Below are positions 20,274-31,436 of a stretch of 64,000 nucleotides of DNA, piece by piece. Location of the stretch: assembly GCF_000317515.1 (NCBI RefSeq), contig NC_019738.1, forward strand, positions 4,800,001 through 4,864,000, given 5' to 3'. The notes below the pieces were generated by a model. That model was not told the origin of the DNA. It was given only the letters and a program-made list of their open reading frames with translations, and ran no database searches. The stretch is from Allocoleopsis franciscana PCC 7113. Its GTDB lineage: Bacteria > Cyanobacteriota > Cyanobacteriia > Cyanobacteriales > Coleofasciculaceae. The translations under genes and the position numbers were made by a program. How positions within the stretch are numbered: position 1 is the stretch's first letter; each line of letters starts with the position of its first letter.

Positions 20274-21557
20274 ATGCTAATCTTCAAAAAGCTGAGGCAC
20301 ATACTATCTGGTCAATTTATTCGTAACTTTGGATGGATGGGAGGAGCAGAATTAGCTAATCGCGTTTTCCGCTTAGGAACAACAGTTGTTTTAGCTCGCT
20401 TACTTACTCCTCAGGATTATGGGCTGGTAGCAATTGTTCTCACCACGAATGAATTTTCCAATGTTTTTACCCTCAGGTCTGGTATCGGCTCTAAAATTAT
20501 CCAAGCTGATGAAAAAGAGCTTAGTGTTATCAGTAATACGGCATATTGGCTGAATTGGATTTTATGTGGCTCGCTGTTTACTATTCAGTGTTTGGCAGCT
20601 TTTCCGATTGCTTTGTTTTATCACAATACCCAATTAATTTTACCTATTTGTGTGACAGCTATAGTTTATCTAATGCTGCCGTTCTTCTTGGTTCAGGGGG
20701 CTTTAATTCAGCGAGAGAACCGACTCAATATCTTTGCTTTATGTAATGTCACACAATCACTTATCGGGAACATTCTAACTATCGCTCTAGCTATCATGGG
20801 TCTAGGCATGTGGGCAATCGTGTTACCTATTGTTCTTTCAACTCCAGTATGGGTCGTAATTTGTAGGAGAAGTCATACCTGGCGAGCTCCCAAATCTATA
20901 AGTTTCGCTCATTGGCAGAAAATTGCTCGTTTTGGTACAAACATACTTGGTGTGGAATTATTAACCAAGCTCCGAAGTAATATAGATTACTTAATAATTG
21001 GACATTTCCTCGGAGTTGATGCTTTAGGTATCTACTATTTTGCCTTCAATGCTGGTTTGGGGATTAGCATGAATGTTTTAGGTGCGTTTACATCCGCTTT
21101 GTATCCTCATTTATGTGAAGTTCGTGGAGATTTAAAGCAGCTTAAACAGAGATTCTTCAGCAGCCTTAAGACCACGATGGCGGTTATGTTTCCCCTCATT
21201 CTTGCACAATCGAGTTTAGCTCCAATTTATGTGCCAATTATTTTCGGTCAAAAGTGGGTAAGTGCTATCCCGATCTTGACTATCATTTGCCTTTCAGCCC
21301 TTTCATATCCCCTTTATAGTTCAACCAATTCTCTCCTAACTGCGGTGAATAAAACTCATGTTACTCTTCGTTTTAGCTTGATTTATACCATGATTTTCGC
21401 ACTCGCTATACTAGTCGCTGTTAAATGGGGCATCCTTTGGGTAGCTGCCTCCGTACTCACTTGCCAGCTACTTTTACCACCTGCTTACAGTATCTCGGCT
21501 ATTAGATATGTCTTCGCCAAACATTCATCCTTCTCATTGGCTGAGGAAAAACCATAA
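20274..21557 (+). CDS. Lipid-linked oligosaccharide flippase (Wzx, MOP superfamily)
   Basis: A 427-residue polytopic membrane protein with ~12-13 helices. The N-terminal GGAELANRVFRLGTTVVLARLLTPQDYGLVAIV is the hallmark of the Wzx/PST family, where NxxxR and LxPxDYG motifs recur. A central segment NIDYLIIGHFLGVDALGIYYFAFN is the second conserved repeat. Wzx flips undecaprenyl-linked repeat units across the inner membrane. It is the first gene of the + strand arm of the polysaccharide locus, so it probably shares a promoter with the genes behind it. Confidence 0.85.
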   Translation: MLIFKKLRHILSGQFIRNFGWMGGAELANRVFRLGTTVVLARLLTPQDYGLVAIVLTTNEFSNVFTLRSGIGSKIIQADEKELSVISNTAYWLNWILCGSLFTIQCLAAFPIALFYHNTQLILPICVTAIVYLMLPFFLVQGALIQRENRLNIFALCNVTQSLIGNILTIALAIMGLGMWAIVLPIVLSTPVWVVICRRSHTWRAPKSISFAHWQKIARFGTNILGVELLTKLRSNIDYLIIGHFLGVDALGIYYFAFNAGLGISMNVLGAFTSALYPHLCEVRGDLKQLKQRFFSSLKTTMAVMFPLILAQSSLAPIYVPIIFGQKWVSAIPILTIICLSALSYPLYSSTNSLLTAVNKTHVTLRFSLIYTMIFALAILVAVKWGILWVAASVLTCQLLLPPAYSISAIRYVFAKHSSFSLAEEKP

Positions 21558-21723
21558 AGATAAAGGCTGTATAAAACAATTGAATTTTGCAGCTTCTCTT
21601 GTTCCTTCTTTTCAAAATTCGGGAACTCTATAAATCAAGGTCTCTCTCGAAGTGGTCAGTCAAGTTATCTTAAGCTTGCCTGCTGACCAAATCTCTAAAA
21701 CACTCTTTTCAGGAGATATTTTC

Positions 21724-22776
21724 ATGAAGACTCTCGTGGCTGGTTGGTTTAGTTTCAAGAACATGAACGTTACGGCTGGCGATTTAATGGCGCGAGATCT
21801 AACCTGTGAATGGCTCGAACGTGCCGGTCATACCTATGACGTTGCTAATGAGCCTCCATTTGTGGGTGGCGTCGATTGGCGTTCGGTCGAACCCAACAAT
21901 TATTCACACGTTGTGTTCGTCTGCGGCCCTTTTGGTAACGGTCAACCTCTAACTGAATTTCTAGAACGCTTCGCACATTCTCGCCTGATCGGTCTTGACT
22001 TATCAATGCTCGATCCGATTAATGAATGGAATCCTTTCGACGTACTTCTAGAACGAGACAGTTCTGCTGCTTCCCGTCCGGATATTACGTTCCTTGCTCG
22101 CCAAGCGAAGGTTCCTGTTGTAGGTATTATCTTGGTTCATCCCCAAAATGAATATGGGAGTAGAGCCAAGCATCAAGTTGCAAATGATGCCATTGAGCGA
22201 CTCATCGCTTCGCGAGAAATGGTTGCTGTGCCTATCGATACTTGTCTCGATCCAAATACTACAAACCTCCGCACCGCAGCTGAAGTAGAATCGATGATTG
22301 CCCGCATGGATTTTGTAGTAACAACACGCTTGCATGGAACGGCATTAGCGCTCAAAAATAGTGTTCCTGTGCTCGCTATTGATGCCATTTCAGGAGGAGC
22401 AAAAGTTCTACGTCAGGCACAAACTATTGGCTGGCCTTTGGTATTTCCAGTTGACGACCTGACTGACGAGGCATTGCACAAGGCTTTTGACTACTGTCAA
22501 ACCGAAGAAGCACGAGCAAAAGCGAAGGAATGCCGCGAGCAGGCTATCAAAGCGGTTGAAGAGATACGCGATAAATTTATTTCTGCCTTCGATCCAGCAG
22601 ATGTATCGAGTTCAAGAGTCGGAAAGCATAAAGAGTCCAACCAAAAACAATCTTATTCCGAACTCATCCTGTCTAAAATTGGGCCGACAGCGCTAAAGCG
22701 TAAAGCAAAAACCTTACAACGTAGAGCTATGCATAAAGCCGGAAACTGGCTTTTAGAGCAATACAACAAAAACTAG
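21724..22776 (+). CDS. Polysaccharide pyruvyl transferase family protein
   Basis: A 350-residue CsaB/WcaK-type enzyme that adds a pyruvate ketal (from PEP) to a sugar of the polymer, making it acidic. The diagnostic C-terminal motif is VVTTRLHGTALALKNSVPVLAID, preceded by VVGIILVHPQ. The N-terminus is MKTLVAGWFSFKNMNVTAGD from the ATG at 21724, which has AGGAG eight bases upstream; the frame is open to a GTG at 21652 but those residues are not family-like. The C-terminal ~70 residues are lysine-rich and helical and look like an extension. Within the polysaccharide operon. Confidence 0.75.
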   Translation: MKTLVAGWFSFKNMNVTAGDLMARDLTCEWLERAGHTYDVANEPPFVGGVDWRSVEPNNYSHVVFVCGPFGNGQPLTEFLERFAHSRLIGLDLSMLDPINEWNPFDVLLERDSSAASRPDITFLARQAKVPVVGIILVHPQNEYGSRAKHQVANDAIERLIASREMVAVPIDTCLDPNTTNLRTAAEVESMIARMDFVVTTRLHGTALALKNSVPVLAIDAISGGAKVLRQAQTIGWPLVFPVDDLTDEALHKAFDYCQTEEARAKAKECREQAIKAVEEIRDKFISAFDPADVSSSRVGKHKESNQKQSYSELILSKIGPTALKRKAKTLQRRAMHKAGNWLLEQYNKN

Positions 22777-26486: not shown

Positions 26487-27572
26487 ATGACAAAAGTTTC
26501 TGTGATTGTCCCTGTATATCAAGTAGAAAAATATATCGCTGCTGCTGTTGAATCAGTTCTTCAGCAAAGCTACAAAGAATTTGAAATTCTCATTGTTGAT
26601 GACGGCTCTCCTGATAAAAGTGTAGAGATTTGCCAACAATTTACAGATTCTAGAATTAAAATTATTCGTCAGGCAAATCGGGGATTAGCTGGAGCCAGAA
26701 ACACAGGAATTCGTCACGCCCAAGGCGAGTATTTAGCTTTTTTAGATTCCGATGACCTCTGGTTACCAGAAAAGTTAGAAAAACATATTGAGCATTTAGA
26801 AAGTTCTCCATCTGTAGGTATTAGTTTTTGTCCCTCTGCTTTTATCGATGAAGTGGGACAACCCAGGGGAACTTTTTCAAAACCCAAACTGAAAGATATT
26901 GAACCGTCTATTTTGCTTCGAGACAATCCAATTGGCAATGGTTCTGCACCAGTGGTTCGGCGAGCAGCTTTGGAAGGAATTAAATACCAAGACAATCTTT
27001 ACAGCACTGTTGAAGACTTTTATTTTGATGAATCTTTGCGTCAAGCAGAAGACCTTGATTGTTGGCTTCGCATCGCGATCCAAACCGACTGGCAGATTGA
27101 GGGTATTCCTGAAGCCCTAACGCTGTACCGGGTGAACTCAGGAGGACTTTCAGCCGGTCTGCTTAAGCAATTAAAATACCTAGAAAAGGTAATTGAAAAA
27201 ACACGGTCTTACGCTCCGGAACTGATAGCTCAGTGGGAAGTTCCTGTTAAGGCTTACCACCTCAGGTATTTAGGTAGAAGTGCGATACGTCTAAGAGATG
27301 GTTCAATGGCTGTGAAACTGATTCATCAAGCTTTGGTTACTCACTGGTGTCTCCTCCTTGAAGAACCAGGTCGCACGCTCATGACCTTGGCTACGGCCTA
27401 CTTACTCTGGCTCTTACCCAAGCATTGCTACCAGCAAATCCGGGCTTTGATTTTAAACATTAAAGGAGTGATCGTCTCAATAAAGGGTATTAAGCAAAAG
27501 CAATTCAGGGTGTGTCTGTCAAGTGTTTCATCAGAATTGGCCAGCTCAACACCATCCCGAATAACATTCTGA
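26487..27572 (+). CDS. Family 2 glycosyltransferase
   Basis: 361 residues. KVSVIVPVYQVEKYIAAAVE, IVDDGSPDKS, LAGARNTGIRHA and the FLDSDDLW metal motif identify the GT-A fold. EDLDCWLRIA is the acceptor-side ED motif. The C-terminal ~110 residues include a hydrophobic helix (LMTLATAYLLWLLP) that may bring the enzyme to the membrane. AAGGTGAG precedes the ATG. It is more distant from the tandem GT2 pair than they are from each other. Confidence 0.85.
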   Translation: MTKVSVIVPVYQVEKYIAAAVESVLQQSYKEFEILIVDDGSPDKSVEICQQFTDSRIKIIRQANRGLAGARNTGIRHAQGEYLAFLDSDDLWLPEKLEKHIEHLESSPSVGISFCPSAFIDEVGQPRGTFSKPKLKDIEPSILLRDNPIGNGSAPVVRRAALEGIKYQDNLYSTVEDFYFDESLRQAEDLDCWLRIAIQTDWQIEGIPEALTLYRVNSGGLSAGLLKQLKYLEKVIEKTRSYAPELIAQWEVPVKAYHLRYLGRSAIRLRDGSMAVKLIHQALVTHWCLLLEEPGRTLMTLATAYLLWLLPKHCYQQIRALILNIKGVIVSIKGIKQKQFRVCLSSVSSELASSTPSRITF

Positions 27573-27611: not shown

Positions 27612-27752
27612 TGTGGTTTTGACGCAAGCAGACACAGCCAACTCCGATGATTGATTGGTTTGTGATCGCCGGATGCCTTATTACGGGTTTAGTTATTTTC
27701 GTAGTAGGGCTAACCCTTACAAATTTGGCTTACGGCATCATGACTCAATCGC
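27612..27752 (+). repeat. Direct repeat copy A (5' end of the GH74-like gene)
   Basis: About 141 bp matching 29128-29268 at a constant offset of 1516 bp, with fewer than ten mismatches by eye, most of them at the 3' end. The copied segment covers 35 bp upstream plus the first ~35 codons of the downstream GH74-like gene. Confidence 0.85.
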
Positions 27753-27793
27753 TCATTTCACCAAATGTAATTTTTTTAACCTGGAGGCGTTAA
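27647..27793 (+). pseudogene. Truncated duplicate of the GH74-like gene's N-terminus
   Basis: 48 codons starting MIDWFVIAGCLITGLVIFVV, almost identical for ~30 residues to the start of the gene at 29163, then diverging (TQSLISPNVIFLTWRR) to a TAA that directly abuts the ATG of the PhyH-Rieske gene. A single transmembrane helix remains. It may be a dead leftover; if translated, its stop codon would couple to the next start. Confidence 0.7.
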
Positions 27794-29104
27794 ATGACAA
27801 ACCTAAGTCTTACAGCAAAAAGCATTGGATTCGAGCATATTCACTCGATACCACTTCACGAAATCAATGATCGTGTGATGCGCGGAGAAATCGTTGTTAT
27901 GCCTAAATGCCTACAAGCTATGGGCTATTTTGAACGCTTGAAAGAGGCTACTCTAGAGGCAATTTGTCAGGCTGTTGGGGAGGCGAAAGCTGCACAGGTT
28001 AGGAGCAAAGGCTTTGAAGCTATTCATGAAATTATTAACCTGGACGAACTCGTGGCAATTAGCAACAGTAGCTATGATGTTATACGTTCGTTAGCACCGG
28101 GGTTATCAAAAGCGGTGGTGAAAGAAATTTTTCAAAGAAAGCAACCTTTCTACTTTGAAGAATCTCCCAATGTAAGATTTCATATTCCTTATGATGTAGT
28201 AGTAGAAAGGAAAAAAGAATTTAGTCAATTCCACTGGAATGGAAAAGTTACAGCCCATGGACCGCATCACGATAGCTGGTATCAATGTCCTACCAACTGT
28301 GTTAATATCTGGATTGCGATTGGCTCTGTCAAGATTGGTAATGGTCTAAGTATCTATCCTCAAGTGTACGGAAAGCGTCTTCCTTGTACAGAGGACGGTA
28401 AGATTTTACGCGATCAATACTTTGGTTCAGTACTGAATTTTGATTTAGAACCTGGGGATGCACTTATCTTTCACGGTGAACATTTACACAGCTCGGAGCT
28501 CAATAGCACGGATGCGACTCGATATGTTGTCAGTCTGCGAATGACGCTGGAAAAGCCCAAGTTTCTTGGGCAATCACCCTACAAAAGCAACTATATATAC
28601 TCCGAGACAAACGATGGGTTAGCAGCAGCCTGCAATCAAGTATCGGCAAAAATTTCTCGCCGTTTTATAAAACAGCTCGACTCGCATCTCAACCGATCGG
28701 AAACCCCCAACTATGTGATTTCAGCATTGGATATCTCGATATTCGATAACACATCAGCTGATTTTCCCAAACCCCCTCTGGTTAAGACGGTTGAAGGAAC
28801 TTCTCAAGACAAGACCAAGCTTATCATTGACTCCACAGAGCTAGCGATAGGTACGATTAAGCCTGTGTCGCAAACGATGTGCGTTGCACGAGTGGATGAA
28901 AATCGGGTAGTGGCTTTCAGCAGGCATTGTCCTCATGAAGGAGCAGACTTGGCGGGCGGATACCTGCGAGATGGATGTGTTGTCTGTCCTTGGCACAATT
29001 TGCCGCTCAACATTGAGACGGGTGCTAGTCCCTGCAAATCGTTATCTCAGTTAAAAGTTTTTGATTGTGTTGAAAGCGATGGCACGGTGGAGATTCAGGG
29101 TTGA
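27794..29104 (+). CDS. Phytanoyl-CoA dioxygenase-like protein fused to a Rieske domain
   Basis: 436 residues. Residues ~115-255 are a PhyH-type Fe(II)/2-oxoglutarate oxygenase: His158-x-Asp160 (HHDSW), distal His232 (EHLHSSELN) and the 2OG-binding Arg243 (ATRYVVSLR). Residues ~345-436 are a Rieske ferredoxin fold: Cys379-x-His381 and Cys398-x2-His401 (CPHEGADLAGG, CPWHN) with 16 residues between, ligating a 2Fe-2S cluster. The two modules normally occur in separate proteins. GGAGG lies 6 nt before the ATG. Its place among glycosyltransferases suggests oxidation (hydroxylation) of a sugar, lipid carrier or small molecule; this is inference. Confidence 0.8.
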   Translation: MTNLSLTAKSIGFEHIHSIPLHEINDRVMRGEIVVMPKCLQAMGYFERLKEATLEAICQAVGEAKAAQVRSKGFEAIHEIINLDELVAISNSSYDVIRSLAPGLSKAVVKEIFQRKQPFYFEESPNVRFHIPYDVVVERKKEFSQFHWNGKVTAHGPHHDSWYQCPTNCVNIWIAIGSVKIGNGLSIYPQVYGKRLPCTEDGKILRDQYFGSVLNFDLEPGDALIFHGEHLHSSELNSTDATRYVVSLRMTLEKPKFLGQSPYKSNYIYSETNDGLAAACNQVSAKISRRFIKQLDSHLNRSETPNYVISALDISIFDNTSADFPKPPLVKTVEGTSQDKTKLIIDSTELAIGTIKPVSQTMCVARVDENRVVAFSRHCPHEGADLAGGYLRDGCVVCPWHNLPLNIETGASPCKSLSQLKVFDCVESDGTVEIQG

Positions 29105-29127: not shown

Positions 29128-29268
29128 TGTGGTTTTGACGCAAGCAGACAGAGCCAACTCCTATGATTGATTGGTTTGTGATCGCCGGACGCCTTATTAC
29201 GGGTTTAGTTATTTTCGCAGTAGGGCTAACCCTTACAAATTTGGCTTACGGCAGCATTACTAAATTGG
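29128..29268 (+). repeat. Direct repeat copy B
   Basis: Counterpart of 27612-27752; this copy is the intact 5' region and first codons of the gene at 29163. Confidence 0.85.
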
Positions 29269-31436
29269 GTACGAAAAAAGCTCGTTTCTTGGGTCAAACA
29301 GCCCGCATTGCAATTATCATCCTAGTGAGTTTAATTGCACTTGAGCAAATTAGGTCAACCATTAGCATCGTCAATATCGCCTATGGCAAGCTACAGGTCG
29401 CGAATGTTCTGGATTACCAGAAAAACGTCTCTTTAGGACAGAGAAACGTCTTTTTAGGAGGAGGTGGATATGTTACAGGTATTTACCTCCATCCACTACA
29501 GAAAGACCTGGTTTATATCAAGACTGATGTGGGTGGGTTTTATCGTTGGAATCCTGATGAGCAGAGTTGGCAGCCACTAACCGATCACTTCCCCCTGGAG
29601 CAAAGCAATTACTATGGTGGAGAAGCACTAGCGCTCGATCCCAACAATCCAGATATCGTTTATATTGCAGCCGGGAAATTCACGGCAGACTGGTGGCCTG
29701 ACAAAGGAACTATGTTCAAATCTACAGATAAGGGAGAAACCTGGACGAAGCTGAACATAGACCTCAAGATGGGTGGCAATGAGGATCTACGATGGCTAGG
29801 AGAAAGACTAGCTGTCAATCCGTTCAATTCTAATATGATTTTATTTGGCTCACGCTTAGATGGGCTATGGAAGTCATTGGATGCTGGTGCGACATGGAGT
29901 CAGGTACTCTCCTTTCCCGGAAAGCCCAAAGCAGATATTGGAATTACAGCAATCGCATTTAGTAAACAGGTACTGGGTTTGGTTTATGCGATCGCCTATG
30001 GAGATGGAATCTACCAGTCTACTGACTCAGGGTTTACTTGGAGCAAAATACCCGGAAGCTCAGCTGAGGCGAAACGCTTGGGTTTAGCCAGTAACGGTGT
30101 TTTGTATGTCACCCACTCTTCTGGGGTGAGTAAATATACCAATGGAGCTTGGAGTAACATCACGCCATTTAAAACCAAAGACACCTTCAATGCAATTAGC
30201 GTCAACCCAACCAATCCTAATAACTTGCTAGTGAGTTTAGGCGAGAATGGTCAGTCTTCTGAAATCTACCAGTCTTTAGATGGGGGAACCACATGGACTA
30301 AGAAGAAGAAATCCATGAATACGACAGTTCCCTGGTGGTCTAGCTATATGCGTTCAAATCCCTGGATAGCCGCTATTGAGTTTGATCCCCAAGTTACAGA
30401 CAGAGTCTGGTTTACTGACTGGTACGGGATTTGGCGGACAGAAGACATTAATGCCAATCCCGTAACCTGGGCTAACTACCAACAAGGACACGAGGAGGTT
30501 GTTACCTTCACACTGGTTTCACCACCAAAAGGAGCACTGTTATTAAGTGGCGTAGCCGATGTGGATGGTTTTTACCATGACAAAGGACTTGATGCTTACC
30601 CATCAAAAACATTTGGTAGTAGTGGTCCTTCGTTTCAAGATACCTATCACATTGCTTACTGCGAAACTGACCCGTTGAAAATGGTGCGCGTTGGTGGCAA
30701 TCGGTGGAACGATACTTATACGGGAACAACATCAATTGATGGCGGTCGGACGTGGAAGCCTTTCGCCTCATTTCCAGAAAAGAGGATGCTAAAACGCATT
30801 GCGATTTCTGCCACTGACCCCAACATCTTCATCGTAACGACAGGTGGTGGTCAGCCCGTAGTTACCACTGACGGTGGAAAATCCTGGAAAAACGTGTCAG
30901 GATTGCCGGACGGGTCTAAAGGTCCCTGGGACTGGAGTCAACCTCTGGCAGCAGATAAAGTCGATGGCAATACTTTTTATTACTATGCCGAGGGCAAATT
31001 TTATCGCAGTACGGACAAAGGCTTATCGTTTGAAACGGTGAACGCCTCACTGCCTAATGAATGGTGGCACTCGCTCAAAACGCTGCCAGGAGTTAAAGGA
31101 GAAGTCTGGCTGAGTCTCGATTGGCAAGGACTGTACCGTTCCACTGATGGGGGCAAAACATTTTCCAAGTTAGAGAAAGTAAACAGAGCTCATCTGTTTG
31201 CGTTCGGAAAGCCACCCAATGGAAGCACAATTCCAGCTTTGTATCTGTATGGCAAAATTGCTGGTAAGGGGGAGGGAATTTTCCGTTCTCTAGACCGAGG
31301 AAAAACTTGGGATTTCATTGGCGATCGCCAATCGCCCATCGGCAATAATCCTAATGTAATGGAGGCAAGTAAGCAACAGTTCGGTTTAGTGTTTATCGGC
31401 ACCAATGGTCGGGGAATTTACTACGGAAGCCAGTGA
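29163..31436 (+). CDS. Membrane-anchored GH74-like (xyloglucanase-type) beta-propeller protein
   Basis: 757 residues. Two N-terminal hydrophobic helices (~5-28 and ~45-65) resemble the conserved TM helix of MscS-like proteins. From ~residue 95 the sequence follows glycoside hydrolase family 74: GGGGYVTGIYLHP, VYIKTDVGGFYRWN, YYGGEALALDPNNPDIVYIA and many BNR/Asp-box repeats (STDKGETW, SLDAGATW, STDSGFTW, SLDGGTTW, SIDGGRTW, STDGGKTF, SLDRGKTW). The KTDVGG Asp sits where GH74 enzymes keep an essential Asp. Such enzymes cut beta-1,4-glucan backbones such as xyloglucan. In this locus a periplasmic, membrane-tethered role in trimming or releasing the polymer is inferred. The plan could also be non-catalytic. 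Confidence 0.78.
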   Translation: MIDWFVIAGRLITGLVIFAVGLTLTNLAYGSITKLGTKKARFLGQTARIAIIILVSLIALEQIRSTISIVNIAYGKLQVANVLDYQKNVSLGQRNVFLGGGGYVTGIYLHPLQKDLVYIKTDVGGFYRWNPDEQSWQPLTDHFPLEQSNYYGGEALALDPNNPDIVYIAAGKFTADWWPDKGTMFKSTDKGETWTKLNIDLKMGGNEDLRWLGERLAVNPFNSNMILFGSRLDGLWKSLDAGATWSQVLSFPGKPKADIGITAIAFSKQVLGLVYAIAYGDGIYQSTDSGFTWSKIPGSSAEAKRLGLASNGVLYVTHSSGVSKYTNGAWSNITPFKTKDTFNAISVNPTNPNNLLVSLGENGQSSEIYQSLDGGTTWTKKKKSMNTTVPWWSSYMRSNPWIAAIEFDPQVTDRVWFTDWYGIWRTEDINANPVTWANYQQGHEEVVTFTLVSPPKGALLLSGVADVDGFYHDKGLDAYPSKTFGSSGPSFQDTYHIAYCETDPLKMVRVGGNRWNDTYTGTTSIDGGRTWKPFASFPEKRMLKRIAISATDPNIFIVTTGGGQPVVTTDGGKSWKNVSGLPDGSKGPWDWSQPLAADKVDGNTFYYYAEGKFYRSTDKGLSFETVNASLPNEWWHSLKTLPGVKGEVWLSLDWQGLYRSTDGGKTFSKLEKVNRAHLFAFGKPPNGSTIPALYLYGKIAGKGEGIFRSLDRGKTWDFIGDRQSPIGNNPNVMEASKQQFGLVFIGTNGRGIYYGSQ

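Follow-up and report, generated by a model that had tools for sequence, protein, structure and literature searches.

A PhyH-type oxygenase fused to a ferredoxin-type Rieske domain in a cyanobacterial polysaccharide locus, and a proposed role of the Rieske domain as a tethered reductant

One gene of Allocoleopsis franciscana PCC 7113 joins a predicted PhyH-type Fe(II)/2-oxoglutarate (2OG) oxygenase to a C-terminal Rieske domain of the ferredoxin type, and by sequence comparison the pairing exceeds chance, as seven fusion proteins with identities down to 20–21% retain all eight metal- and 2OG-binding residues. With moderate confidence, the protein is proposed to be a PhyH 2OG oxygenase that tailors a sugar or lipid-linked precursor, the Rieske domain acting as a built-in one-electron reductant of its iron. 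Each domain is well known; what appears new is the joining of a Rieske ferredoxin to a PhyH oxygenase, and a search of the open-access literature found no paper describing a PhyH–Rieske fusion. Positions below refer to the window, i.e. the whole 64,000-nucleotide stretch of DNA that was analysed (contig NC_019738.1, 4,800,001 to 4,864,000), and all features given with window coordinates lie on its + strand.

The fusion gene (27794..29104, 436 aa; identified from its ORF, Pfam matches and orthologues) was read as a single uninterrupted frame of 436 codons with an ATG start, 3' of a GGAGG ribosome-binding site at 27783-27787. Stops occur throughout the opposite strand as read in frame 1, and the ORF list of the window contains no reverse-strand ORF of at least 100 aa over the gene. 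The preliminary description of this DNA had placed a full Fe(II)/2OG site and a complete Rieske site in this one ORF; both were recovered residue for residue, as H158, D160, H232 and R243, and as C379, H381, C398 and H401, respectively. Between the two halves lies a fast-evolving linker (residues 261-341, 28574..28816) with 41-53% identity and the highest dN of the four segments compared. Pairwise comparison of the three close orthologues gave a dN much smaller than dS across the PhyH core, with dS near saturation in the pairs that include the window protein, and the same was found in the Rieske half for the two orthologue pairs with computable dS.

The PhyH core (residues 120-260, 28151..28573; 77-83% identity in pairs with the window protein) matched PF05721 (Pfam) at residues 145-243 with an E-value of 2.2e-6 and 28.5 bits against a cut-off of 22, the match spanning only positions 98-211 of the 213 in the profile. 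Profile searches against solved structures returned MysH (the best PDB profile match, E 3.9e-6), PHYHD1, human phytanoyl-CoA hydroxylase and SnoN, all in register at H...R and, where covered, at H-x-D. The first and second Fe ligands, H158-x-D160 (28265..28273), align to the H-x-D of PHYHD1 and SnoN, and the third ligand, H232, precedes the 2OG carboxylate arginine R243 by 11 residues (28487..28522); both elements are invariant in the seven fusions. Given what is known of the family, the fusion protein likely uses 2OG, since PHYHD1 has the same H-to-R spacing of 11. The H-x-S...N...T-R motif around the 2OG arginine is likewise retained in all fusions and in PHYHD1. The window protein thus shares the H-x-D...H triad, the arginine at H+11 and a profile score above cut-off with the PhyH family (MysH, PHYHD1, human phytanoyl-CoA 2-hydroxylase), but is distant in sequence, has a diverged N-terminal half and carries the added C-terminal Rieske domain. 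AlphaFold models of three close orthologues had a pLDDT of about 25-30 in the PhyH half. Membership in TIGR04324 (sporadic carbohydrate cluster 2OG-Fe(II) oxygenase), with which the protein has a carbohydrate-cluster setting in common, was ruled out: the weak match over residues 205-251 scored 18.7 bits, far under the cut-off of 150.

The Rieske domain (residues 342-436, 28817..29101) matched PF00355 (Pfam) at residues 354-411 with an E-value of 5.1e-10 and 39.6 bits against a cut-off of 20.3. All four cluster ligands are present in the spacing C-x-H, 16 residues, C-x2-H given in the preliminary description, namely C379-P-H381 (28928..28936) and C398-P-W-H401 (28985..28996), so that the predicted 2Fe-2S site is complete; the first pair, and the cysteine and histidine of the second, are invariant in the seven fusions. 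An extra cysteine after the cluster-binding loops, C414 (29033..29035), is also invariant in all seven. The AndAb, HcaC, NirD and MocE ferredoxin models matched this half, all under their cut-offs. In AlphaFold runs of the three close orthologues the Rieske half folded with a pLDDT of about 66-85, and a poorer model (mean pLDDT 50) was obtained when the domain was folded alone. Modelled residues 339-436 superposed on the Rieske ferredoxin 5bok (3-nitrotoluene dioxygenase ferredoxin) with a VIA Z of 14.7 and an rmsd of 2.2 angstrom over 97 residues; a similar structural match was obtained with the ferredoxins of naphthalene and carbazole dioxygenases, and the Rieske domains of oxygenases gave a lower Z than the carrier ferredoxins. 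Sequence and predicted structure together assign the domain to the electron-carrier ferredoxin type rather than the oxygenase Rieske type, as expected for an electron-donor module. It has the C-x-H-x16-C-x2-H pattern, fold and size of Rieske ferredoxins (CarAc, naphthalene dioxygenase ferredoxin, BphA3/BphF, AndAb, HcaC) and of NirD, but unlike these it is fused behind a 2OG oxygenase, instead of being a separate subunit of a Rieske oxygenase or nitrite reductase, and the fusions carry the additional conserved C414.

Homologues with the same domain order, for which the preliminary description had proposed searching, were found. A scan that sampled each species by a single genome yielded a full-length orthologue in Desmonostoc vinosum (61% identical over 1-436) and another orthologue, 66% identical over residues 65-436, in Pleurocapsales LEGE 06147. 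There, two contig ends each carry part of the gene, C49 holding residues 1-48, beside a pyruvyl-transferase-like gene, and C74 residues 65-436. As one of these contig ends, read in frame, resembles a transposase C-terminus, the split is likely due to an inserted element or an assembly break. Searching 389 genomes of the order with a PhyH profile added G022 (411 aa), G623, G634 and a second copy in the window's own genome, giving seven fusions in six of the 389 genomes; these four distant fusions are 20-27% identical to the window protein, three of them 20-21%. In the alignment of the seven, the H-x-D...H triad, the 2OG arginine, the four Rieske ligands and C414 are all invariant. That the PhyH residues and cluster ligands, four of each, stay fixed together even at 20-21% identity indicates that selection acts on both metal sites together. 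That two genes were merged here by a frameshift or misassembly, the outcome against which the preliminary description had staked its reading, was looked for and is ruled out: the D. vinosum orthologue is full-length, and five more fusions, drawn from independent assemblies or loci, show the two domains in this order, which leaves the explanation with next to no probability.

In a sample of the whole phylum, fusions occurred in three of 377 genomes, all in the same order; none was detected in 346 genomes of a second phylum (holding Yaniella), a weak negative given the cyanobacterial bias of the profile. Plasmid collections contained only a PhyH-only relative from Embleya and Rieske-only matches, and phage and viral collections contained no relatives. 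The family is thus rare and patchy, and probably old. Two types were distinguished, type A comprising the window, Desmonostoc and LEGE 06147 proteins and, more distantly, G022, and type B the second copy in the window's genome, G623 and G634. The Rieske domains of both types formed one clade (support 97/89) against 26 other sampled Rieske domains, which supports, and within this limited Rieske sampling is consistent with, one old fusion event. In the tree of the PhyH half, the Rieske-less Embleya protein branched among the fusions without support, so that this tree neither supports nor excludes a single origin and fits either loss of the Rieske domain from the Embleya protein or a position outside the fusions. 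As the Embleya relative is the PhyH part alone, the sequences indicate that this fold does not require a Rieske part.

Other PhyH-like frames were recorded in the course of these searches. The window's genome has six PhyH matches in all, two of them adjacent at G000:C1:4570465-4571806 (316- and 265-codon frames). The 528-aa protein at L044:1435-3021 joins a short-chain-dehydrogenase-like N-terminal half to a PhyH-like C-terminal half, and two more genomes of the same genus have frames of 530-532 codons.

The preliminary description had set the gene between glycosyltransferases and a GH74-like protein. The polysaccharide locus was confirmed, with a GT2 glycosyltransferase directly upstream (26487..27572). 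The downstream neighbour (29163..31436) is better described as a VPS10/BNR beta-propeller protein matching PF15902 (Sortilin/VPS10-BNR, E 3.5e-28), and the name 'GH74' was dropped, the NCBIfam glycosylhydrolase model scoring 115.9 bits against a cut-off of 175. The same locus encodes a Wzx-type flippase (Polysacc_synt_3, 20274..21557) and a polysaccharide pyruvyl transferase-like protein (21652..22776) that, by profile search and locus comparison, accompanies window-type fusions. Between the window and Desmonostoc loci the Wzx proteins are 58% identical, the pyruvyl-transferase-like proteins 63% and the fusions 61%; polymerase-like and chain-length-like proteins (43-44% each) are also common to both. 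The Wzx and pyruvyl-transferase-like genes share the locus with the window-type fusion in all three close genomes, and only five of the order's 379 genomes covered encode the pyruvyl-transferase-like protein, among them the three that have the type-A fusion proper. In LEGE 06147 the pyruvyl-transferase-like gene, which adjoins the fusion, is frameshifted, and with the fusion gene itself divided between contig ends (L064:97-1404 and L065:79-1230) the module may be decaying there. The G022 fusion adjoins a glycosyltransferase and a sulfotransferase, and the Embleya relative adjoins frames that read as glycosyltransferase-like and sulfotransferase-like.

The polysaccharide setting therefore holds for the shared locus of the three close relatives but not for type B. 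The second fusion of the window's genome lies beside an asparagine-synthase-like gene (L027:4437-9002, after an asparagine-synthase-like and a QueC/DUF6395-like gene); in L029 a 409-aa protein of similar size and look is found near another PhyH gene and an aminotransferase-like gene. In G623 and G634, both of one genus, a CpeS phycobiliprotein-lyase gene follows the fusion directly (L053:7498-9615, L052:8389-10647). Given these other settings, the combination of the two domains is not specific to polysaccharide genes.

In the proposed mechanism, Fe(II) would be held by H158, D160 and H232 and 2OG by R243, and the PhyH half would oxidise, most likely hydroxylate, a sugar, nucleotide-sugar or lipid-linked intermediate of the exopolysaccharide that this locus makes. 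Oxidative tailoring of the polymer or of a lipid intermediate, as the preliminary description had suggested, is plausible for window-type proteins. KdoO, the LPS Kdo dioxygenase that converts Kdo to Ko, offers a parallel in role (PMC5462993, citing Chung and Raetz 2011), being a dioxygenase that modifies a surface glycan and whose gene lies near glycan genes. To our knowledge KdoO has no Rieske domain, and most PhyH enzymes function without a tethered reductant. When turnover is uncoupled, the iron of 2OG oxygenases ends up highly oxidised, which ascorbate repairs in eukaryotes, and prokaryotes possess such enzymes without ascorbate (reviewed in PMC6191929). Organisms of this kind must somehow handle the dead-end ferric iron. 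In the window protein, iron left ferric by uncoupled turnover would receive one electron from the C-terminal Rieske domain and return to Fe(II), the domain replacing the ascorbate used by eukaryotic relatives; the cluster itself may be reduced by a soluble cell reductant, e.g. photosynthetic ferredoxin. The Rieske domain would thus probably keep the oxygenase iron reduced, as vitamin C does in plants and animals. If true, a conserved tethered Rieske donor would be a direct, testable answer to the ferric dead end, would link two large non-haem iron oxygenase families that are normally treated apart, and would give a natural model from which 2OG enzymes that reactivate themselves could be engineered.

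A tethered reductant would explain the joint retention of the two sites, the ferredoxin type of the Rieske domain and the retained 2OG arginine, and we infer re-reduction of the iron, as the most economical role, in preference to redox sensing or service to a partner. That the domain serves another enzyme, as a shared ferredoxin attached here to aid its expression or localisation, or adds only to the structure, is rather unlikely: the fast-evolving linker (41-53% identity) and the Embleya relative without a Rieske domain would fit such a role, but the domain persists in gene neighbourhoods that otherwise have nothing in common, and neither a Rieske oxygenase nor another obvious electron acceptor was seen in the loci examined. 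A cluster that switches the oxygenase on and off as a redox or oxygen sensor appears quite unlikely; the invariance of C414 in the seven fusions could support thiol or cluster redox sensing, but a cysteine here could be a by-product of the fold, no regulatory gene is linked to the fusion gene, and we know of no precedent for sensing in this type of Rieske domain.

Two further readings give the Rieske electrons a part in catalysis itself. An unlikely one is a self-sufficient oxygenase acting on a surface glycan precursor, in which the Rieske domain would feed the 2OG-oxygenase iron within catalysis, by rescue in each cycle or by a switch between 2OG and Rieske electrons. The other, which we regard as improbable, has the Rieske domain supply the catalytic electrons, the beta-helix iron site acting like that of a Rieske oxygenase without, or not only with, 2OG. 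The domain is of the electron-transfer ferredoxin type and has all its ligands, and such an enzyme would be a distinct solution, no self-sufficient Rieske oxygenase having been identified according to a 2025 review (PMC12445004). Against this stand the 2OG arginine and the H-x-S...N...T-R motif, kept in all fusions as in PHYHD1, and the presence of a ferredoxin-type domain only, with no reductase; a partner reductase was not found in the fusion locus either. Rieske non-haem iron oxygenases (SxtT, GxtA, dicamba monooxygenase, carnitine monooxygenase) likewise combine Rieske and mononuclear iron sites within a single chain, but the order is reversed in the window protein, which has its Rieske domain C-terminal, a PhyH-type catalytic domain and a 2OG arginine. 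Assignment as a Rieske oxygenase alpha subunit, which needs an N-terminal Rieske domain ahead of a helix-grip catalytic domain, was accordingly rejected.

At its present site the fusion gene is flanked by two copies of a 138-nt direct repeat (27612..27749 and 29128..29265, 95% identical), the only two found in the genome, which match the leader and first part of the VPS10/BNR gene downstream. The upstream copy leaves a 48-aa leader ORF (27647..27793), a truncated copy of the VPS10/BNR gene start with a membrane-like segment, and its TAA directly abuts the ATG of the fusion gene, making translational coupling of the two frames possible. G002, of the same family, has the glycosyltransferase (64%) and VPS10/BNR (59%) genes adjacent with nothing between them and no fusion (L080), and G007 has both flanking genes separated by a different 263-codon frame, also without the fusion. 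Given the flanking repeat and these relatives, the fusion gene was most likely inserted between the glycosyltransferase and VPS10/BNR genes in this lineage, and part of the neighbour was duplicated in the process; the insertion is fairly recent and probably occurred by recombination. Loop-out between the 138-nt copies would remove the fusion gene.
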